From Myxococcota bacterium (lineage in GTDB: Bacteria > Myxococcota_A > Polyangia > HGW-17), in contig JAHJMN010000182.1 in NCBI GenBank assembly GCA_018821305.1, positions 1 to 46,926 of the forward strand: a stretch of 46,926 bases of DNA, in the 5' to 3' direction. Shown here piece by piece: positions 3,055-46,685 of this stretch. The translations under genes were made by a program, and so were the position numbers. Position 1 is the stretch's first letter, and each line of letters starts with the position of its first letter. The notes beneath the pieces are model-generated. The model saw nothing but the letters and a program-made list of their open reading frames with translations. It was not told the DNA's origin and did no database searches.

Positions 3055-3509
3055 ATAATAATACTCCTGAGAAGACTCTATTCAGTCTCCAAACCATTGA
3101 TGCAGTGTGTCAAAAACATAAAGCATCCCGCTGTTTTACTTTATTTGATGTGTGGATAAAAATCAACTGGTGTAACAGTTTTTTATTTTTAAACAGTTCG
3201 TGTTCTTAATTGAGGAAAACATGAAATGGATCTATTTCAAAACAAGTTTTTTGTTTTGTTTTGCGGGAAATCTGATAATAATAATCTGAAATTCCGGGGC
3301 CGGATTCGATTTTGTTGCTGTCTTTTAATACAGGTTGTCATGTTTTAACCGAATTTTGAATCAGGACAGTGGCCATAAGATATTGAATTTATAGTACTGG
3401 TCTGTCGGAATTTCCATAAATTCCTTCGCAAAGCGAATTTCAGGACATGAACGGTTTCAAATATCAGTTAAGTCCCCGGTTAAACGCTTTCGGACGGCAG
3501 TAACTAAAT
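3055..3509. other. Non-coding gap between divergent genes
   Basis: These 455 bases separate the metallophosphoesterase (minus) from the kinase (plus), so promoters in both directions are expected here. The half next to the kinase is occupied by a copy of the GTCCTG/CAGGAC repeat (3346-3452). The rest is A+T-rich with no convincing open frame. I could not pick out a trustworthy promoter by eye. Confidence 0.6.
3346..3452 (-). repeat. GTCCTG/CAGGAC intergenic element, long form
   Basis: Its order of blocks matches the copy at 22369-22511: ACCGAATTTTGAATCAGGAC, then AGTGGCC, a TTGAATTT tract, a TTCC...AATTCC hairpin, AAGCGAATTTCAGGACATGAAC. It is the reverse-complement orientation of the copy at 35314-35457. 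The right end CAGGACATGAAC pairs with the family's usual other end, GTTCGTGTCCTG. Confidence 0.7.
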
Positions 3510-8586: not shown

Positions 8587-8603
8587 TCGCGCAAAATGTA
8601 ATC

Positions 8604-8632
8604 CTTCCCAAAGCGAATTACAGGACATGAAC
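8604..8632 (-). repeat. Fragment of the GTCCTG/CAGGAC element
   Basis: Only one end is clear: AAGCGAATTACAGGACATGA followed by AC, as in the copies at 22501 and 3431. The other end is not recognisable, although CTAACTA occurs at 8696-8702. The sequence just downstream (8635-8665) shares a second motif, ACCGCTTCC...GATAGTGACT, with 22179-22206. Confidence 0.5.
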
Positions 8633-10297: not shown

Positions 10298-10364
10298 TAG
10301 TTCGTGTCCTGAAATTCAATTTTTATCAAAATTGAGCATGTTTAGGAAAACAGAACATTAACTA
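10298..10364. repeat. GTCCTG/CAGGAC element, 67-bp form
   Basis: It starts TAGTTCGTGTCCTGAAATTC and contains a hairpin, CAATTTT-TATC-AAAATTG, that recurs almost unchanged at about 15216-15235. The right end is degenerate (ACAGAACATTAACTA). Its last three bases form the stop codon of the M24 peptidase on the minus strand. Confidence 0.65.
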
Positions 10365-12125: not shown

Positions 12126-14180
12126 ATGACCTGGATGGTAAAAAAAAGCGACGGCTCCGTAAGGGAGTACGAAAGGGAAAAGATTCAGCTCGTTTTGGCG
12201 AACATCGGAATCACTGATATTCATATCACTGAACTTTGTGAATCAGAACTATATTCTGACTTTTTCTCTGATGGAAGTATACCCTCAACCTCCACTATAA
12301 AGAGGCGATTGGTTACTTTACTCGAAAAATATGGATATGTAGCAGCTGCTGAAAATCTCAAGGAAAACATAATTGCTCCTGATGATCAGATCAGTCCGTT
12401 TGTTGAAAATCTTGTTGAAGAATATCTGTTTCGCAGTGACTGGAGAGTAAATGAAAATTCGAATATGAACTATTCTCTTCAGGGACTTAATTTTCATGTT
12501 TCTTCAAGTATTGTTGCTCGTTATTGGTTGAACAAAATGTATCCGTCCTACATTGGCGATGCCCATACGGATGGTGATATTCATATCCATGATTTAGGAG
12601 TTTTGGGGCCATATTGTGTCGGTTGGGATCTTCAAGACCTTATACTCAGGGGTTTTGGTGGTGTTCCAGGAAAAATTGAATCCTCACCAGCCAAGCACTT
12701 TAGAACTATTCTAGGACAGATTGTAAATTTCTTTTACACTCTTCAAGGCGAAGCCGCTGGAGCTCAGGCTTTTAGTAATTTTGATACACTGCTTGCTCCA
12801 TTCGTGCGCTTTGATGGGCTTGGTTATTTTGAAGTAAAACAAGCGCTTCAAGAGTTTGTTTTTAATCTTAATGTACCAACCAGAGTAGGATTTCAAGCTC
12901 CTTTTACCAATATTACTCTGGACTTAACACCATCACCAGCTCTCGAAAATACTCCCGTTATCATTGGTGGAGAAATTCTGGAAGATCACACTTATGGTAT
13001 GTTTCAGGAGGAAATGAACCTTATAAATCGTGCACTTGCGGAACTCATGGCTGAAGGTGATGCCAAAGGGCGCATTTTTACTTTCCCCATACCCACTTAC
13101 AATATTCATCGAAATTTTGACTTTGATGATCCTGAACTTATTCCACTGTGGGAAATGACTGGAAAATACGGTATCCCCTATTTTTCCAATTTTGTAAATT
13201 CCGATTTAGATCCGGATGATGTCAGATCCATGTGCTGTCGGTTAAGGTTGGATACAAAAGAGTTAAGAAATCGCGGTGGTGGACTATTCGGGGCAAATCC
13301 ACAAACAGGAAGCATTGGCGTTGTTACCGTTAATATTCCACGCATTGCTCATCTCGCTTCAAGTCAAAAGGATTTTTATCGGAGACTGAACGATATACTC
13401 GAAATAGCAAGGGAATCACTGGAAATTAAACGTGGAGCAATTGAAGAACTCACAGATCGTGGACTCTTCCCCTATACGACGAATTATCTTCATAATGTTA
13501 AAGATCGGTTCGGTTGTTGGTGGGCAAATCACTTTTCTACTATCGGCATCATTGGAATGAACGAAGCATGTGAGAACCTTTTAGGATGCCCAATATCTGA
13601 TCCGATTGGTAAGCAGTGGGCAGTGGAGGTAATGGACTACCTTCGCAATCAACTTGCCCGTTTTCAGGAAGAAACAGGAAACTTTTACAATCTTGAAGCG
13701 ACTCCTGCTGAAGGGGCCAGTTACCGCCTGGCACGCAAGGATGCGAAGCTTTTTGACGGAATTTTTGCGCAGGGCAGTGAGGATGTGCCATATTACACTA
13801 ACTCGGTACATGTCCCGGCGATGGAACAAATGGATATTTTTGAACTGCTTGAACATCAGGATGAGCTTCAAACCATGTTTACAGGGGGAACCGTAGTTCA
13901 TCTTTTCCTTGGCGAAGCTATCCCTGATCCCTCAAGTGTAAAAGAGCTTGTTCGATCAATAGTCCAGCGTTTCCGTCTGCCCTATTTCAGCATTACACCT
14001 ACTTTTTCCATATGTCCTGTTCACGGATACATCAGTGGGAAACACTTCCGCTGCCCATATCCGCACAGTGACAGTGAATTAGCTGATTTCGGAAAAGACG
14101 TTGAAATTTCTGAATCAGAAATCAGGAATCTTGATTCCACAGCTTATAGAAATATTGAACTCAAGGAGGGAAGAAAATGA
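12126..14180 (+). CDS. nrdD: Anaerobic ribonucleotide reductase, catalytic part without glycyl loop
   Basis: A 684-residue class III ribonucleotide reductase large chain, which makes deoxyribonucleotides without oxygen. It has an ATP-cone-like N-terminus (about 4-95), the class III core (GDIHIHDL; QGEAAGAQAFSNFDT), active-site C370-C371 in SMCCRLRLD, and GGGLFGANPQTGSIGVVTVN. The C-terminal metal-site region reads CPVHGYISGKHFRCPYPH (C630, H633, C643, H647), where family members usually have CPxC as the second pair. The chain then stops. The expected glycyl radical loop is missing from this frame and is encoded by the overlapping next gene. The ATG has GGAGG nine bases upstream. Operon order is nrdD, glycyl peptide, nrdG. 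Confidence 0.93.
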   Translation: MTWMVKKSDGSVREYEREKIQLVLANIGITDIHITELCESELYSDFFSDGSIPSTSTIKRRLVTLLEKYGYVAAAENLKENIIAPDDQISPFVENLVEEYLFRSDWRVNENSNMNYSLQGLNFHVSSSIVARYWLNKMYPSYIGDAHTDGDIHIHDLGVLGPYCVGWDLQDLILRGFGGVPGKIESSPAKHFRTILGQIVNFFYTLQGEAAGAQAFSNFDTLLAPFVRFDGLGYFEVKQALQEFVFNLNVPTRVGFQAPFTNITLDLTPSPALENTPVIIGGEILEDHTYGMFQEEMNLINRALAELMAEGDAKGRIFTFPIPTYNIHRNFDFDDPELIPLWEMTGKYGIPYFSNFVNSDLDPDDVRSMCCRLRLDTKELRNRGGGLFGANPQTGSIGVVTVNIPRIAHLASSQKDFYRRLNDILEIARESLEIKRGAIEELTDRGLFPYTTNYLHNVKDRFGCWWANHFSTIGIIGMNEACENLLGCPISDPIGKQWAVEVMDYLRNQLARFQEETGNFYNLEATPAEGASYRLARKDAKLFDGIFAQGSEDVPYYTNSVHVPAMEQMDIFELLEHQDELQTMFTGGTVVHLFLGEAIPDPSSVKELVRSIVQRFRLPYFSITPTFSICPVHGYISGKHFRCPYPHSDSELADFGKDVEISESEIRNLDSTAYRNIELKEGRK
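14163..14180 (+). promoter_or_regulatory. Internal Shine-Dalgarno with ATGA overlap / possible slippery stop
   Basis: AAGGAGGG (14163-14170) is seven bases before the ATG at 14177, and the ATG shares bases with the nrdD stop (ATGA). This is a near-ideal site for coupled re-initiation of the glycyl peptide. The last nrdD codons read AGA AAA TGA; a lysine tRNA on AAA (14175-14177) could slip back one base onto AAA (14174-14176) and continue in the glycyl peptide frame. An upstream Shine-Dalgarno is also a known stimulator of -1 frameshifting, so either mechanism is possible. Confidence 0.7.
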
Positions 14181-14368
14181 ATTATACCACAGCAAAATCC
14201 AGAAAAATCCGAGTAATTGAAACCGAAGTATATTCAAGAGTAGTTGGATATTATCGTCCTGTTCAGAACTGGAATGAAGGTAAACAAATGGAATTTTCCC
14301 AGCGTAATCTAATGTCCCTGGAATCCCAAAGGCTTGATAGTGGAAAATTTATTAAATTAGTGGGCTAA
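14177..14368 (+). CDS. Separate glycyl radical domain of NrdD
   Basis: A 63-residue protein whose centre, TEVYSRVVGYYRPVQNWNEG, is the canonical glycyl radical loop found at the C-terminus of one-piece NrdD chains; the radical glycine should be Gly24. The preceding 13 residues are basic (AKSRKIRVIE), and the tail after KQMEF is about 24 residues longer than I expect for NrdD C-termini. It starts in the -1 frame relative to nrdD with its own strong Shine-Dalgarno. If it is made separately, it must dock onto NrdD, much as the spare-part protein GrcA/YfiD does for pyruvate formate-lyase. A sequencing frameshift is an alternative, but the ATGA overlap and Shine-Dalgarno argue against it. Confidence 0.85.
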   Translation: MNYTTAKSRKIRVIETEVYSRVVGYYRPVQNWNEGKQMEFSQRNLMSLESQRLDSGKFIKLVG

Positions 14369-14374
14369 TAAATT

Positions 14375-15064
14375 ATGTTTGTCCATATTCTGGGAACAAC
14401 CCTCGTTGATTATCCAGGAAAAGTGGCTTCAACAGTTTTTTCGGCTCACTGCAATCTCCGCTGCCCCTTCTGTCACAATTCAGATTTAGTCCTGGAAACT
14501 TCCATATCCCAATTGCAGGAACTTTCTGTAGATTATATAAAAGCATTTTTTACAAAAAGACTCGGTTTTTTAACAGGAGTTGTTTTTACAGGAGGTGAGC
14601 CGCTTTTAAATCCTGACCTTCCCAGCATGATGATTACATTGAAGGAAATGGGGCTTTCTATTAAACTTGACACAAATGGAACAAATCCTGAAATACTAAA
14701 GGATCTCATAGATATTCCAGATTATATTGCTATGGATGTTAAATCCTCTCCGGAAAAGTACAATCTGGCTACCGGTGGTCGTGGCTCCTTTTCCCGGATA
14801 CTAGAATCTCTTGAAATTCTTCGTGAAAACAATAAAAGATTTGAATTGAGAACTACTGCTGTTCGCCCTTTATTTGATATAAATGATGTAAAGTCTCTTT
14901 TTCAATATCTGGGGAAAGTTGAAATATGGGCTCTTCAAAGTTTTTATCCGGACCATGTTCTTAATGAGGCCTGGTCTGAAATCCCACCCTATACTCCCGA
15001 TGAAATGAAAATACTTGCTTTTGAAATGAAAAATACCGCAAAAGTTGTTCCATTGCGCTTTTAG
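14375..15064 (+). CDS. nrdG: Anaerobic ribonucleotide reductase activating radical SAM protein
   Basis: A 229-residue radical SAM enzyme. The cluster motif is CNLRCPFC (C26, C30, C33), and VFTGGEPLLNP is the SAM-contacting GGE motif. NrdG uses a 4Fe-4S cluster and S-adenosylmethionine to abstract hydrogen from the NrdD glycine. It begins six bases after the glycyl peptide stop, giving a compact three-gene operon. It is longer than the roughly 155-residue E. coli NrdG and fits the longer form often paired with Thermotoga-type NrdD. The presumed activation target here is Gly24 of the separate 63-residue protein. Confidence 0.9.
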   Translation: MFVHILGTTLVDYPGKVASTVFSAHCNLRCPFCHNSDLVLETSISQLQELSVDYIKAFFTKRLGFLTGVVFTGGEPLLNPDLPSMMITLKEMGLSIKLDTNGTNPEILKDLIDIPDYIAMDVKSSPEKYNLATGGRGSFSRILESLEILRENNKRFELRTTAVRPLFDINDVKSLFQYLGKVEIWALQSFYPDHVLNEAWSEIPPYTPDEMKILAFEMKNTAKVVPLRF

Positions 15065-15081: not shown

Positions 15082-15421
15082 TTCAATGCTGTTCGGCTAA
15101 GGCGTATTAGTTTATATTATTAAACACCCTGCCCCTGACCCTGTTTCCCTGAATACCTGCCTACCTGTAATTTATTTATAATGTTGTATTTATTAGTTTT
15201 TTACTGTCCTGAAATTCAGTTTTTATCAAAATTGAGAATTTTTAATAAATTTCATCGCGAAACAAATTTCAGGACTACGAACAAATCAGAGCAATGACTG
15301 TAAAGACAGTTGACGTCAAACAGCATATAGTTTAGCATTCTACAGGTTTTCAAACCATTGACCGATTTGTATAAAATCAAATGGAATTTTTCATTGATTT
15401 TATACGGGCGAGGAGATTTCC
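15065..15421. other. Repeat-bearing non-coding gap
   Basis: It contains the inverted partner (15086-15110) of the 25-bp repeat at 241-265, a CCTG-rich tract (about 15116-15172) like the arms of the 275-bp element, and a copy of the GTCCTG/CAGGAC element (15198-15282). The last 60 bases before 15422, ending GCGAGGAGATTTCC, supply the ribosome-binding site for the next gene. Confidence 0.65.
15198..15282. repeat. GTCCTG/CAGGAC element, 85-bp form
   Basis: The ends are TTACTGTCCTGAAATTCA on the left and TTTCAGGACTACGAAC on the right, which pair as inverted repeats. Inside are the TATC-loop hairpin shared with 10298-10364 and the TTTTTAATAAATTTCATCGCG segment of the longer copies, so this copy links the short and long forms. 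Confidence 0.7.
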
Positions 15422-16416: not shown

Positions 16417-18195
16417 TTAATTTCCGATCAGGTGGTCGCCGAGCTCTATCATCAATCTTCCGACCTTCGCCATGGAATTACTTAGTTCATTTGTTTTATT
16501 GCGTATTTTAGTAATCTCATCGGATATTGTTTTTTCAGAATTTTCAATCAGAGATATAGTTTTTGATGCGGTTTCCTCGCGATACTGTCGATTAAGTTGC
16601 TCTATAGTTTCAAGTCGTGAACTGACCTCTGAAAGTATATCTTCACGTAATTGCAGATTTTCCTGCTCCAGAGCTTCAATTCTTTTTATAAGACTTCTAA
16701 CAAGCTCCCTGTCATCGTTTGAAACCGCAACCTTATCCTGAGATTTTTTCTCAAAAGAAGGTGATGCTCCCTGTGGAGGGGAAATTTCAGAAAGAGATTT
16801 ATCAACGGAAGGAACTTCAGATTTAAACTGATTAAATAACTGAACTGATGTCGTTTCTTTTGAATTTTCATCAGGTTGATTATTCAACTCATGTTTTGGA
16901 ATTGAATCATGGTGTCTAATGTTTTCATGTCTTTGAACTGACTCCACCGAAGATGACATTTCTTCTACTACAGATTCAGAATTTTCTTTGTTGTCCAGTT
17001 CTAACGGTGCAGCAATCGGTGCATCTTTTACATTCATCTCACCGGAAACAGTTACGTTTCCAGCTACATCCGAAGTTGCGGAAGCCGCTTTAATAATTGA
17101 TTCCGCAGCCATGAGTGAGGGTAGTTTAAAAACGGCCGTTGCCTCGGTGTCGGGAAGATTACTTCCCTCGGTGTCGGGATGATTACTTCCCTCGGTGTCG
17201 GGATGATTACTTCCCTCGGTGTCGGGATGATTACTTCCCTCGGTGTAGGGACGATTACTTCCCTCGGTGTCGGGACGATTACTTCCCTCGGTGTCGGGAT
17301 GATCCGTTCCCGAAGTTGGTGGTTCATCTTCATCGGATGGAATGGCTTCAATTTCAATTTCCTGAGAGGGCTCCGCAGTGGCAGATTCAATATCAGCAAC
17401 TGTTCCCACGGGGGTCAACTCATCAGAATTTTCATACTGAACGTCCATTTCTTCTTCGTCAACTTCCGGATTTTCCTTTTTTTCATCTTCCGCTGCCGCA
17501 TCGGCCATTTCTCTGGACACTTCAGAGTTTGACATTATTTTTTCCAGTAAACTATCTCCGTCAAGAGCATCCTGCTTCATTTCATCTACATTGATAAGAC
17601 GAGAAGGACTGAGGTACTTCTGAATATTCTTCATAGTCAGTCTAGTTATAAGTCGAAGGGTTTCCATTACACCCTTACCCTGACTGGCAACAGCTTCAAT
17701 AAAAGGAAGATGTTCAGCACGTAAAAGCATGGCCATTTCTCTGGTGGTCATGGTTTCGGGAAGATCTTTTTTATTACACTGGATGACCATGGGCAATTCT
17801 TCAATATCAACACCCAGTTCAGACATATTTTCTCGCAGGTTCGAAAAACTGTAGGTATTCTGTTCCGCCGCTGCTTTTTGACTGTCAGCTACAAAAACTA
17901 CCCCATCAGCACCACGAAGTACCTGCTGACGAGTTTTATTATATCTGACCTGACCGGGGACTGTGTATAACTGAATTCTTACATCGAATCCCCGGATTTT
18001 TCCAAGATCCAGAGGCATCCAATCGAAGAATAAAGTACGATCTCCTTTTGTATCAAGGCTCATAAGCTCCCCAGCCCTGTCCCTGGAGAGCATTACGCTC
18101 AATTTTTCCAGATTTGTAGTTTTACCGGAAAGTCCGGGCCCATAAAAAACTATTTTAATCTGAAGTGTTTTTGTCAGAGTGCTAACATGCGGCAT
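16417..18195 (-). CDS. MglA-like GTPase with long repeat and coiled-coil tail
   Basis: A 592-residue protein. Residues 1-205 form an MglA-type Ras-like GTPase: P-loop GPGLSGKTT (19-27), a switch region with RTLFFDWMP, LYTVPGQVRYN, GVVFVADSQ, and NKKD (141-144). MglA proteins act as polarity or motility switches in myxobacteria. Unlike MglA, about 390 residues follow: an acidic, Ser/Thr-rich disordered region with seven tandem octapeptides (PDTEGSNH-like, about 296-351) and a C-terminal coiled coil (about 495-592). I chose the ATG at 18195, with GGAG six bases upstream, because the longer open frame runs into an intergenic repeat. The tail may tether the switch to a partner or filament; that is inference. 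Confidence 0.88.
   Translation of the reverse strand: MPHVSTLTKTLQIKIVFYGPGLSGKTTNLEKLSVMLSRDRAGELMSLDTKGDRTLFFDWMPLDLGKIRGFDVRIQLYTVPGQVRYNKTRQQVLRGADGVVFVADSQKAAAEQNTYSFSNLRENMSELGVDIEELPMVIQCNKKDLPETMTTREMAMLLRAEHLPFIEAVASQGKGVMETLRLITRLTMKNIQKYLSPSRLINVDEMKQDALDGDSLLEKIMSNSEVSREMADAAAEDEKKENPEVDEEEMDVQYENSDELTPVGTVADIESATAEPSQEIEIEAIPSDEDEPPTSGTDHPDTEGSNRPDTEGSNRPYTEGSNHPDTEGSNHPDTEGSNHPDTEGSNLPDTEATAVFKLPSLMAAESIIKAASATSDVAGNVTVSGEMNVKDAPIAAPLELDNKENSESVVEEMSSSVESVQRHENIRHHDSIPKHELNNQPDENSKETTSVQLFNQFKSEVPSVDKSLSEISPPQGASPSFEKKSQDKVAVSNDDRELVRSLIKRIEALEQENLQLREDILSEVSSRLETIEQLNRQYREETASKTISLIENSEKTISDEITKIRNKTNELSNSMAKVGRLMIELGDHLIGN
17143..17310. repeat. Seven tandem 24-bp repeats inside the GTPase gene
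   Basis: Seven direct copies of a 24-base unit beginning CTCGGTGTCGGGATGATTAC, starting at 17143, 17167, 17191, 17215, 17239, 17263 and 17287. Copies 2-4 are identical, and the others differ at one to four bases. The unit is a multiple of three, so copy-number change keeps the frame. The near identity implies recent expansion and likely length variation between strains. Confidence 0.95.
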
Positions 18196-18210
18196 ATTTA
18201 CTCCATAATC

Positions 18211-18485
18211 AGTTCGTGTCCTGTAATTCGCCTCGCGAAGGATTTTATTAAAAATCCTGACTACAACGTATTTCCAAAGAAAATCGTCAAAGTTGGCAAC
18301 TGTTTTGGCAGAAAACAGTGAGAAACAGGCCACTACTAATAAATTCAACACCTTGCGGTTACTGTCTAAAACCTATTTCCGAAGGAAATAGTCAAAGACG
18401 ACAACTGTTCTCATTTAAAACAGTGAGAGTCCTGAGCAAAAAATCGGCTGAATTTTTGATTTCTTGTATTTCAGGACAATAACTA
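18211..18485. repeat. GTCCTG/CAGGAC element, longest composite copy
   Basis: It runs from AGTTCGTGTCCTGTAATTCG to TATTTCAGGACAATAACTA. Inside are the AGGATTTT-ATTA-AAAATCCT hairpin, a block shared with 35314-35457 (GGCCACTA, then TTCAACACCTTGCGGTTACT), two related TTTCC...AAAATAGTC/ACAGTGAG segments that look like an internal duplication (about 18264-18325 and 18372-18428), and the CTGAGCAAAAAATCGG segment of the 61-bp form. A further left-end fragment begins at 18489. The repeat fills the gap upstream of the GTPase start. Confidence 0.8.
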
Positions 18486-18556
18486 ATCAGTTCGTATCCT
18501 GCAATTCGCTACGCAATGAAATCATTATAAATCCAGCAGTATCCTTAAATGAGTAC

Positions 18557-20184: not shown

Positions 20185-20499
20185 GATTTATTAGTCCCTT
20201 TTAGGCCGTTAATGTCCTCAGTAAAAAATCAAGGGTTCCACTTTGTTTGCTTGCCATGTCAGGGATGTTTAATATACAATGATTCCCTGAACAGTATTGC
20301 GAGTAGAATATAATTGATTATAATAATCAGCAATTTTTCGTCTTACTGTACAAGTTCTAAAATTCCGGTTTTCGGTTTTTAGTCAGTTATTGTCCTGAAA
20401 ATCATGATTTTTATTTTTTTTCGCAGTTTTTTAACTCAGGACATTAACGAAATAAGTTCATATTCAGTATAACTGATAATGAACGGTGAGGTTGGAAAC
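20185..20499. other. Non-coding gap between divergent genes
   Basis: It separates the propeller gene (minus) from the pseudokinase (plus) and should carry promoters in both directions. The only structure I can support is the 63-bp repeat at 20386-20448. A 13-base string, ATACAATGATTCC, at about 20275 recurs at about 11776 upstream of nrdD. Confidence 0.5.
20386..20448. repeat. GTCCTG/CAGGAC element, 63-bp form
   Basis: GTTATTGTCCTGA (20386-20398) and TCAGGACATTAAC (20436-20448) are inverted repeats matching at 12 of 13 bases, enclosing an A+T-rich centre. The length and ends match the forms at 35395-35455 and 46625-46685, but the interior has diverged. Confidence 0.75.
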
Positions 20500-22241: not shown

Positions 22242-22306
22242 TAGTTCGTGTCCTGTTAGGATTTTTAATAAAATCCTTCGCGAAGCGAATTACAGGACTT
22301 TAACTA
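22242..22306. repeat. GTCCTG/CAGGAC element, 65-bp hairpin form
   Basis: TAGTTCGTGTCCTGT and ACAGGACTTTAACTA bound an internal perfect hairpin, AGGATTTT-TAAT-AAAATCCT, and the TTCGCGAAGCGAATT segment. This is the simplest form carrying the hairpin. Confidence 0.75.
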
Positions 22307-22368
22307 TATAATTGTAATCGAAATTGAAATCAATTATAGTAAGTACGTGATTTTTACGATTTAGTTAA

Positions 22369-22511
22369 TGTCCTGTAATACGATTTTTTCAAGTTTACAC
22401 CAAATTTTTAACCGATTTTGATTCAGGACAGTGGCCGCAAGGTTTTGATTTCACTGACAGTGGTCTGTTGGAGATTTTAATAAATTTCTTCGCGAAGCGA
22501 ATTACAGGACA
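22369..22511 (-). repeat. GTCCTG/CAGGAC element, 143-bp form
   Basis: It is bounded by the perfect 11-base inverted repeats TGTCCTGTAAT (22369-22379) and ATTACAGGACA (22501-22511). The interior matches, block by block, the reverse complement of 35314-35457 (ACCGATTTT, CAGGACAGTGGCCGCAAGGT, TTTTAATAAATTTCTTCGCG, AAGCGAATT). It lies 24 bases before the histidine kinase start, so the repeat may overlap its promoter. Together with 22242-22306 it fills most of the 365-base gap. Confidence 0.8.
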
Positions 22512-22535
22512 TGATCAATTCAGTCCGCAGGAGTC

Positions 22536-33484: not shown

Positions 33485-33763
33485 GCGCTTCACGATTATA
33501 ATGATCGAAATCTAAAAAGTGAATATTTGCTTCAAGTTCTTTGCAATTTTAAATTGATATTGAATGGTTACGTCCTACGCCTTAACCTGTTTTCCTGATC
33601 CCCTGTCTGCCTGATTCCCTGTTAAAAAAATACAGGAACACAGGTAAACAGTAGCAGTAACAGGACAATCAGGTTGGCAATTTCGCGCAGCGGAATGCTT
33701 TAGAGGGGCTCTTTCCTGAAGGTTTTCATTAAATTAATTTACAATCCTATACTCATGAAGCGG
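33485..33763. repeat. 275-bp palindromic intergenic element, copy 2
   Basis: The right end TACTCATGAAGCGG (33750-33763) is the exact reverse complement of the left end of copy 1. The left end (33485-33498) is degenerate. The conserved block at 33503-33560 matches 294-350 closely. The hairpin arms CCTGATTCCCTGTT and ACAGGAACACAGG follow, then ACAGGACAATCAGG. The 22-bp block at 33677-33698 is inverted and on the opposite arm relative to copy 1 (382-403). The element fills the 303-base gap between two convergent genes. Confidence 0.8.
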
Positions 33764-35313: not shown

Positions 35314-35457
35314 ATTCGTGTCCGGAAATTCGCTTCGCGAAGAATTTTATTAAAAATTCTATCCGGCCACTAGCAATATTTTCAACACCTTGCGGTTACT
35401 GTCCTGAGCAAAAAATCGGCGAAAAATTTTAATTCTGGTATTTCAGGACAGTAACTA
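35314..35457 (+). repeat. GTCCTG/CAGGAC element, complete two-part copy
   Basis: The left part runs from ATTCGTGTCCGGAAATTCGC through the AGAATTTT-ATTA-AAAATTCT hairpin to TATCCGGCCACTAG; its ends GTGTCCGG and CCGGCCAC are near inverted repeats. The right part is a 61-bp unit with perfect 13-base ends, GTTACTGTCCTGA (35395-35407) and TCAGGACAGTAAC (35443-35455). The two parts are joined by TTCAACACCTTGCG. Confidence 0.85.
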
Positions 35458-35627
35458 AGTAGTTTCAAAGCCGGAAAAACCCGGAAACCTGATCAAATAA
35501 TTGAACCGGCACTTTAAATTTTAACCGGTATCAGAAATCCTTATGGGTAAAGTACTATATTTTTATTTGCTGCACAACCCATAGAAAGAAAAACATTGGC
35601 ATAAATTCAATTTATCGAAATTATTAT

Positions 35628-43686: not shown

Positions 43687-45240
43687 ATGTTTAAAAATAT
43701 TTTTTTCATTTTTATAGTTACTCTTGTACTTGCCGGTTGCGAAAAAAAACGCACGGGTTCGGAGAAAAAAGAAATGACAATTAAAACTCCGGAAGTACCG
43801 AAAATAACAGCTCCTGGAACATTTGCACAGCATGGATGGTACCCCAAAGATGTATCTACTCTTAAAAAACTACTGAATGATTATCAGAAGGGTTTTAAAG
43901 CGGACAAATGCAGTAGTTTCGCCGCCGTAGTGCCTCATGCTGGCTACAGGTTTTCAGGAAAAGCTGCCGCAAAGGCCATACTTACCCTCAGGCAGAATCC
44001 TCGCCCACTGCGCGTTATCATTCTTGGTGTCAATCATCGCGGTGGAGTTAAAGGAATCGCTGTCCCTGACACATTCAACCATTTCGCCACCCCCCTCGGG
44101 GATTTACCTGTGGATACCGCTGCTGTAAATTTCCTGCGAAAAAATGCCATGCCCTGGGTGGTTCCTGATGACAATGTTTTTAAAACCGAACACAGTATTG
44201 AAATGATTCTCCCCATGATCCGGCATTATTCAGGTGAGGTTCCAATTGTTCCAATTATTGTGGGTCGGTTTGATGCCGATATGCGGGCGGTCCTGGTAAA
44301 AGCTTTAAGATCCGTCGTAAACGAAAGAACCATAATCATTGCATCGAGCGACTTCACTCATCGCGGCGAAGGTTACAATTATGAACCATTCCCTCCCGGG
44401 GCGGACCTTCCCTCAGAGGTTAAGAAACTCGATTTTGGTGCCTGGGATAGTATTAAAGACCTCGATTCCGACGCTTTGATGTCCTACAAACAGAAAACCG
44501 GTATCACCATGTGCGGAATTTATCCCGTTTCCCTTCTGCTTGCAGTGCTCAAAACTTCCGGTGAGAAACTGAATGGACAAGTAACAGATTATTACACATC
44601 TGGGGACGTGCAGAAAAACTACAAGAGTTCCGTAAGTTATCTTTCAGCAAACTTCTGCCGCATGGGAGAAGGTATGCATTTCGGACTTGACCGCCTGCAA
44701 CAGGAGAAACTTCTGACCATCGCAAAGCGAGTTGTGGAAAAGGTTACAAAGAAGGGATTTTCGGAAAATGACTTTTCCGCTGATGAATTTATAAAGGATA
44801 TGGCCATTGATCCCATGCTCAGTGAAAAAGGAGCTCCCTTTGTGACTCTGAAGAAAAACCATAATCTCCGGGGCTGTATTGGTCATCTGAGCGCCGTAGC
44901 TCCGCTGTGGGAAGCCGTTGCACTCAATGCCATGGCCGCAGCCCTCTTCGATCGACGCTTCAAACCCGTAACCGAAGAAGAAGTCAAAAACCTTGAATTC
45001 GACATCAGTGTTCTTACGCCTCCCCGCGCCGTTCAATCCTGGCAGGAAATTACCATCGGTAAACACGGAATGATTTTAAAATACGGCAAGCGCCGGGCCA
45101 CATTCCTCCCTCAAGTAGCCCCGGAAAACAAATGGGACCTTGAAACCACTCTCAAACATCTTTCGCGCAAAGCCGGCCTCTCCGGTGAGGACTGGAAAAA
45201 AGCATCATACGAAGTCTACGAAGCCCAGGTTTTCAAGTAG
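43687..45240 (+). CDS. Lipoprotein fusion of MEMO and AMMECR1 domains
   Basis: A 517-residue protein. The first 18 residues form a lipoprotein signal (FIFIVTLVLAGC, Cys18). Residues about 43-325 are a MEMO-like domain with likely metal ligands H84 (VVPHAGYRFSG), H117 (GVNHRGG) and C276 (MCGIYP), plus TEHSIEM and SSDFTHRG. Residues about 335-517 are an AMMECR1 domain with its hallmark LRGCIG (394-399). These are proteins B and A of the AmmeMemoRadiSam set, usually cytoplasmic and encoded with a radical SAM enzyme. Here they are fused, apparently exported, and no radical SAM partner is adjacent. The biochemical function of the family is not settled. Confidence 0.88.
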   Translation: MFKNIFFIFIVTLVLAGCEKKRTGSEKKEMTIKTPEVPKITAPGTFAQHGWYPKDVSTLKKLLNDYQKGFKADKCSSFAAVVPHAGYRFSGKAAAKAILTLRQNPRPLRVIILGVNHRGGVKGIAVPDTFNHFATPLGDLPVDTAAVNFLRKNAMPWVVPDDNVFKTEHSIEMILPMIRHYSGEVPIVPIIVGRFDADMRAVLVKALRSVVNERTIIIASSDFTHRGEGYNYEPFPPGADLPSEVKKLDFGAWDSIKDLDSDALMSYKQKTGITMCGIYPVSLLLAVLKTSGEKLNGQVTDYYTSGDVQKNYKSSVSYLSANFCRMGEGMHFGLDRLQQEKLLTIAKRVVEKVTKKGFSENDFSADEFIKDMAIDPMLSEKGAPFVTLKKNHNLRGCIGHLSAVAPLWEAVALNAMAAALFDRRFKPVTEEEVKNLEFDISVLTPPRAVQSWQEITIGKHGMILKYGKRRATFLPQVAPENKWDLETTLKHLSRKAGLSGEDWKKASYEVYEAQVFK

Positions 45241-45799
45241 TTTGGTCATTTACATCCATGTGATTACCCCGCCGCATTTCGCCTTGCGACATTGCTGTAC
45301 CCGGCGCCGATCCGCGGATTCAACATCTCGTTCGGATTTGCAGTGGGGTCATTTACGTCTATGTGATTACCCTCAGGATCTGCGAATTCAGGGTTGTGTT
45401 TGGATTCACGCGTGTGGTCATTCAACATCGCGTTCGGATTCACGGGTGTGGTCATTTACGTCTATGTGATTACCCCGCCACCGTCCCGGCTCTTACGAAC
45501 CGGGCTGAAAAGCTTGCGCCTGTGTTGAACAGGCTCATGATTCGAAGATTCAGAGTTGCATAGGGATTCAGTAGTGTCGTATTCGGCGGTGTTGGTTCCC
45601 TTTTCGCATTTAGCCTTGCGACATTGCCGTCCTCACCTTCCGGTGATAAATTCAATTAAGTCAATCTTCCACCTTGACAAAACTGTTTCAGGTCGCTAAA
45701 AAGTTAAAAGAAGTATAAACTTGTTATAAAATTTCTGGAGATAAACAGATCAACTGAGTTTCTATTCCGCGTAAACATTGTTAACTGCCGAGAGGGATC
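45241..45799. other. Repeat-rich non-coding region, richer in G+C than its surroundings
   Basis: Nearly 560 bases without a convincing gene. The left part (45244-45480) is built of 103-base period repeats. CGCATTT(C/A)GCCTTGCGACATTGC occurs at about 45273 and again at about 45606. A hairpin, CCTGT-GTTGA-ACAGG, lies near 45520. The short open frames here exist on both strands and mainly follow the repeats. The last 140 bases are A+T-rich and contain the promoter and ribosome-binding site of the next gene. Confidence 0.65.
45244..45480 (+). repeat. Degenerate tandem repeats with 103-bp period
   Basis: The string GGTCATTTAC(A/G)TC(C/T)ATGTGATTACCC begins at 45244, 45347 and 45450, exactly 103 bases apart each time. 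In the first two units a second conserved string, ATTCAACATC(T/G)CGTTCGGATT, lies near the unit end, while the middle is variable. The third unit is incomplete. Confidence 0.8.
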
Positions 45800-46624: not shown

Positions 46625-46685
46625 GTTACTGTCCTGAGCAAAAAATCGGTGAAAAATTTGATTTCCCGTATTTCAGGACACTAAC
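46625..46685 (+). repeat. GTCCTG/CAGGAC element, 61-bp form
   Basis: GTTACTGTCCTGA (46625-46637) and TCAGGACACTAAC (46673-46685) are inverted repeats at 12 of 13 bases. Length and most interior bases match 35395-35455 (shared string GAGCAAAAAATCGG), so this is the 61-bp unit standing alone. Confidence 0.85.

Follow-up and report, generated by a model that had tools for sequence, protein, structure and literature searches.

The intergenic region around position 35314 raises the question of what kind of repeat it contains, and by which route the copies of this repeat became dispersed. The window, i.e. the whole stretch of 46,926 bp that was analysed, is contig C209 of a 5.22-Mb draft genome with 216 contigs.

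Copies in the window and in the genome

A sequence-only reading of the window had proposed a dispersed intergenic repeat family. The family proved to be real: profile searches recovered every copy listed in that reading, and 11 copies or part copies were found in the window (Table 1). The end motif GTTACTGTCCTGA, with at most three mismatches, was present 35 times versus 9.3 expected occurrences, and none of 100 shuffles reached 35. Some details had to be corrected. The focal element has a length of 142 bp and ends at 35455, so that the last two nucleotides of the extent originally given (35314-35457) belong to the target flank and lie outside the element; in profile matches, its start is alternatively given as 35315. 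Furthermore, the units at 35395-35455 and 46625-46685, which had been described as nearly identical, differ at 6 of 61 positions (about 90% identity). In the focal copy, the initial base is no longer intact (G to A at 35314) and the flanks show no clean duplication (GTAAAA/TAAGTA), which indicates an older copy.

Table 1. Copies and part copies of the repeat family in the window, and features of the focal element
Feature	Position	Strand	Evidence
Complete focal type-1 element, 142 bp	35314..35455	+	profile E=5.6e-45; aligned with 66 other copies
Focal left half: three-way junction	35318..35370	+	RNA and DNA folds, compensatory pairs across copies
Focal left half: outer stem GTG.CCGGA / TCCGG.CAC; hairpins at the positions given	35330-35340 and 35341-35360	+	
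Focal right half: 61-bp unit, 13-bp perfect inverted ends, long hairpin	35395..35455	+	
Focal right target flank TAAGTA; left counterpart lost	35456..35461	+	
Diverged complete type-1 element	3314..3452	-	profile E=3.5e-22
Fragment, first 37 bp of type 1	8596..8632	-	profile E=6e-4
63-bp element, type-2 left half; flanks TTTTTA/TATTTA	10300..10362	+	profile
Mosaic of type-2 left part and inverted type-1 left part	15200..15282	+	profile
272-bp type-1 element with one extra hairpin module per half; exact duplication TAATCA	18212..18483	+	profile
Fragment of a second left half, adjoining the 18212 copy	18490..18534	+	profile E=0.004
Diverged right-half unit standing alone	20386..20448	-	profile E=0.01
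Left-half unit alone, 61 bp; flanks TCTATA/TATATA	22244..22304	-	profile
Diverged complete type-1 element	22364..22514	-	profile E=6e-28
Right-half unit alone, 61 bp	46625..46685	+	profile

The copy at 18212 extends into the start of a GTG ORF (16417-18351) taken from a mechanical gene call, and the start call is probably over-long. This ORF, which has Ras/Arf-like GTPase matches, also contains about seven tandem 24-bp repeats (TCGGTGTCGGGATGATTACTTCCC) at 17115-17335. Interleaved direct repeats, with 34-bp units at a spacing of 103 bp, are located at 45240-45630, 3' of a Memo/AMMECR1 gene and ahead of a SUKH-domain gene.

Profiles built from complete copies were used to search 1.11 Mb, consisting of 1.06 Mb of genome stretches and the window, and yielded 140 loci at E<=1e-10 and 174 loci at E<=1e-5. 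Genome-wide searches with both modules, which had been suggested as a check, resulted in dozens of strong matches each for the 61-bp unit and the hairpin unit, and in about 350 first-look candidates. In long contigs that were taken nearly whole, 100-131 loci per Mb were found; the resulting genome-wide number of about 520-680 is an extrapolation from contigs that were picked partly because they hold copies. Many contigs end inside elements (e.g. C153, C145, C16, C116, C114, C46, and C32). The repeats are thus a cause of assembly fragmentation, and counts of copies at contig edges should be read as minimum values.

Among 67 full type-1 copies, the identity to the nearest neighbour had a median of 96.5% and a maximum of 99.3%, and the mean pairwise identity was 87%. 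These values point to repeated bursts of amplification, some of them recent. The absence from relatives that was anticipated for a mobile family was also observed: no match was obtained in any of 289 further genomes from the class, among them the only same-genus relative. In that relative, the genes flanking 35314 are syntenic, and the element is missing from the gap between them. The family was likewise not found in 38 relatives searched at a looser cut-off, and viral contigs searched for it gave no match. Among the genomes tested, the family is restricted to this species. For one protein encoded in the window, the nearest named relatives were Deltaproteobacteria and Bradymonadales MAGs, with 80-70% identity.

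Modular build and predicted fold

Two main size classes of full elements exist, type 1 with 141-142 bp and type 2 with 153 bp, and variants range from 61 to about 272 bp. They are short and, as is the case for MITEs, do not carry a transposase of their own. The terminal inverted repeats, GTTCGTGTCCTG on the left and GTTACTGTCCTGA on the right when read from outside, were found at both ends of dozens of copies. Type 1 has the order GTTCGTGTCCTGTAATTCGCTTCGCGAAGGATTTTATTAAAAATCCTAACAGGCCACTA, spacer AATAAATTCAACACCTTGCG, and GTTACTGTCCTGAGC...GGTATTTCAGGACAGTAAC; type 2 shares the ends and the order, but contains other hairpins (CAATTTT..AAAATTG and GCATGTTT..AAACATGC). End-like motifs occur four times per full element, and the right half, 61 bp long, is already a unit of its own delimited by perfect 13-bp inverted ends. 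This accounts for the nested forms that had been noticed. Lone single halves are also present, some of them with duplications. That a 61-bp unit is combined with hairpin units, as proposed, was borne out by type-2-left/type-1-right recombinants and by two extra modules that recur at fixed places. One is a double hairpin of roughly 63 bp within the right or the left half, and the other is GC-rich and occupies the central spacer in both types.

Both strands of the tested full elements folded far better than shuffled sequences (z -3.6 to -6.0), and the left half of the focal copy reached z values of -4.3 and -5.5 for RNA and DNA, respectively. The predicted structure combines a three-way junction bearing two hairpins, made by the left half, with a single long stem made by the right half. 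The type 2 consensus has the same topology despite largely unrelated hairpin sequences. In the 67 type-1 copies, pairing is retained via two-sided changes in 72 cells, versus 23.6 in shuffles. The fold may assist transposition or host tolerance. A stronger version, namely that the left half is a three-way junction under selection, as cruciform DNA or as RNA, and is needed for mobilisation or host tolerance, appears rather unlikely to us. If it were true, a structural code would exist on top of the inverted ends, an unexpected need for a MITE of a DDE transposase.

Most of the two-sided changes trace back to about four base pairs and a small number of subfamily haplotypes, and therefore palindrome correction has to be taken seriously as an alternative to selection: the covariation could arise by template-switch or cruciform repair of the palindromes, without any selection. 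We regard this as quite possible, though somewhat less likely than not. The small number of base pairs with both partners altered in many copies, tracking few haplotypes, is consistent with it, as is the existence of mixed intermediates, but local correction alone leaves unexplained why the different hairpins of type 2 form the same junction. The issue concerns only the fold, and repair of palindromes is compatible with the elements being MITEs. One folded architecture built from different sequences offers a concrete test of whether MITE hairpins matter for transposition.

Target sites and the probable partner insertion sequence

Flanking repeats were analysed for every inverted end pair 45-420 bp apart, and repeat lengths of 2 to 12 were compared. 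Exact 6-bp repeats were found 55 times, versus 5.3 times upon random re-pairing of the flanks (maximum 12 in 50 trials). In the same set of end pairs, none of the remaining lengths was comparably enriched; for example, 110 exact 2-bp matches were observed and 88 were expected. The matrix of the duplications is palindromic, TAwwTA, and neighbouring elements in tandem arrays share one TAnnTA. Because divergence of the region in the same-genus genome precludes defining an empty site to the base, paralogous sites were used. For copies on C61, C84, C35, and C146, such empty sites lack the element and one 6-bp copy, with 76-86% identity across the junction, and are situated in other copies of the surrounding repeat.

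A second dispersed repeat is rich in CAGG/CCTG (CCTGTTTGCCTGACT...CAGTAGCAGGAACAGG). Its two window copies (407-478 and 33594-33665) are 81% identical, it is common genome-wide (e.g. L104:19215-19309), and it is an insertion target of some MITEs.

A PF01609 search revealed one transposase of 450 aa with an intact reading frame, encoded on contig C216 (87-1436). The best NCBIfam model by far was ISNCY (NF033593; residues 31-446), with a score of 294.4 bits that is below the curated cut-off of 325 and thus indicates a divergent ISNCY member or a neighbour group. The DDE triad D150/D355/E406 is invariant among 4 homologues. Named genomes scanned with the transposase gave no match, and no solved structure related to it by sequence was found. 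A homologue with 27% identity in another genus (L287) has inverted ends starting with GTT and a 6-bp direct repeat, TACCCA.

The gene on C216 is followed on its 3' side by TATTTCAGGACAGTAAC-TATTTA, that is, the right end of the elements plus the target. The left end of this insertion sequence (IS) is cut off by the contig edge, and its first 76-84 bases were found again at the edges of six further contigs; there, the left end GTTCGTGTCCTGAAATTAAG is preceded by TAACTA or TATTTA. The right end TATTTCAGGACAGTAAC is present on C216, C123, and C193 and is followed by TATTTA or TAACTA. The IS is also found at the edges of at least six contigs besides C216. Its length of 1,679 bp results from joining contigs by overlap, no single contig containing the whole IS with both flanks, and its flank duplications, pooled over contigs, agree only as sets (TATTTA, TAACTA). 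The inverted ends are identical at 14 of 16 positions (GTTcgTGTCCTGAAAT / GTTacTGTCCTGAAAT), and the two differing bases (a CG/AC asymmetry) mark left and right exactly as in the MITEs. This shared asymmetry is the strongest single argument for a partnership. In addition, a MITE directly abuts four of the six left flanks and one right flank of the IS, sharing the TAnnTA. We consider the IS the probable parent of the family; beyond the 12-17 terminal bases, nothing obvious in common was found between the elements and the IS, so that the elements may not descend from it.

The sequence-only reading had assumed a transposase encoded elsewhere and had advised a search for one with matching ends. 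The ISNCY-type IS, which shares both ends and the TAnnTA target, answers to this, and together with the 6-bp duplications and the empty sites it upholds the assumption of a mobile MITE-like family. Because the two distinct ends of the IS match those of the elements and both are flanked by TAnnTA sites, we conclude that the elements are very probably a high-copy MITE family mobilised by the transposase of this IS, which would act on them in trans. In the proposed mechanism, the DDE transposase of 450 aa would bind the ends of 12-17 bp (GTTCGTGTCCTG left, GTTACTGTCCTGA right) and excise or copy the element, and insertion at TAwwTA would generate the 6-bp duplication. New insertions into a TAnnTA beside existing copies would lead to tandem arrays, and recombination between copies would shuffle the hairpin modules.

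A relation to REP elements had also been suggested, in which case REP/BIME-type repeats would be moved by a Y1 (RAYT) transposase. Three Y1 genes do exist in the genome, and on C84 one element lies at a distance of about 660 bp from such a gene. However, the Y1 locus on C8 is free of any copy of the elements' ends, and the remaining Y1 loci hold ordinary dispersed copies without a matching pair. True inverted ends and a 6-bp duplication are at odds with Y1 chemistry, and an IS with matching ends is present. This origin is thus highly improbable. RAYT was rejected as a partner, as the palindromes in which the Y1 genes sit differ from the elements and IS200/RAYT chemistry makes no 6-bp duplication.

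At L061 (G000:C8), 12434-15060, a Y1/RAYT-like gene lies beside a CRISPR-like array with the repeat ATTTCCGCTTCTGAAAAGAAGCGGCTCCATTGAAGC, copies of which are also found between the Y1 gene and the neighbouring ORF. REP-like palindromes (GCGTTCGCAAGAACGC ... AGCCCGGAGCTTCAGCTCCGGG) at L062 (G000:C84), where they surround the RAYT-like gene, and at L166 (G000:C33) represent a separate repeat system.

Gene context and relation to known systems

The intergenic placement that had been noted for the window applies more widely: 170 of 174 loci are intergenic, although 87% of the sequence is ORF. The preference for signalling genes did not hold up, as no excess was found beside kinase, PAS, histidine-kinase or receiver genes (9/105 gaps versus 22/282, odds ratio 1.1, p=0.83); the impression arose from the gene content of the window itself. 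Copies were not in excess in convergent (p=0.48) or divergent gaps (p=0.55), a bias for co-directional gaps was sought without success, and the orientation relative to genes showed no clear preference (p=0.09). An Rfam search of the window gave no match.

The sequence-only reading had considered that copies may act on transcripts or carry promoters. These data bear on whether the copies are domesticated cis-regulatory or RNA elements (terminators, RNA-processing sites, or promoters) under host selection, with mobility only in the past. The common fold of both subfamilies, compensatory changes far above shuffles (72 cells versus 23.6), and the proximity to ORFs (median distance 38 bp) would agree with such a role. 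It is made improbable by the lack of bias for gap type, orientation or signalling genes, by the syntenic same-genus gap without the element, and by nearest-neighbour identities of up to 99.3% and exact duplications, which point to recent movement. Intergenic location without a bias for orientation or gene class fits insertion followed by purifying selection better than recruitment as regulators.

Elements of this kind are already known, but the family, its partner and the conserved architecture appear to be undescribed in the literature searched, which contained no paper linking MITEs with an ISNCY-type parent. They represent an unusually abundant, mix-and-match MITE swarm of an uncultured lineage, paired with a probable parent IS that is apparently intact. 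Bacterial MITEs such as Correia, RUP, ERIC, and Chunjie are likewise short, gene-free and mostly intergenic, with inverted ends and target duplications; they also reach hundreds of copies (ERIC up to 711 in Photorhabdus) and are mobilised by IS transposases (PMC10969869), as we infer here. In contrast to these, the present family has a 6-bp TAwwTA duplication, where MITEs of the Correia/RUP type (IS630) have a 2-bp TA duplication, as well as an ISNCY-type partner and a bipartite organisation in which a further pair of ends lies inside the element. REP/RAYT systems (BIME) are also high-copy intergenic palindromes (PMC2817692), but the present family departs from them in its ends, its 6-bp duplication and its partner gene. 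ISNCY (NF033593), with the ISDol1 and IS1202 subfamilies, is the best match of the partner transposase, which has kept the DDE triad but scores, with 294 bits, under the curated cut-off of 325. The BOX elements of Streptococcus pneumoniae, which span 67-637 bp, likewise consist of variously combined modular boxes with stem-loops and have a parasitic distribution (PMC3049150); the present family differs from them in its sequences and module order, and by the presence of a resident IS with matching ends.
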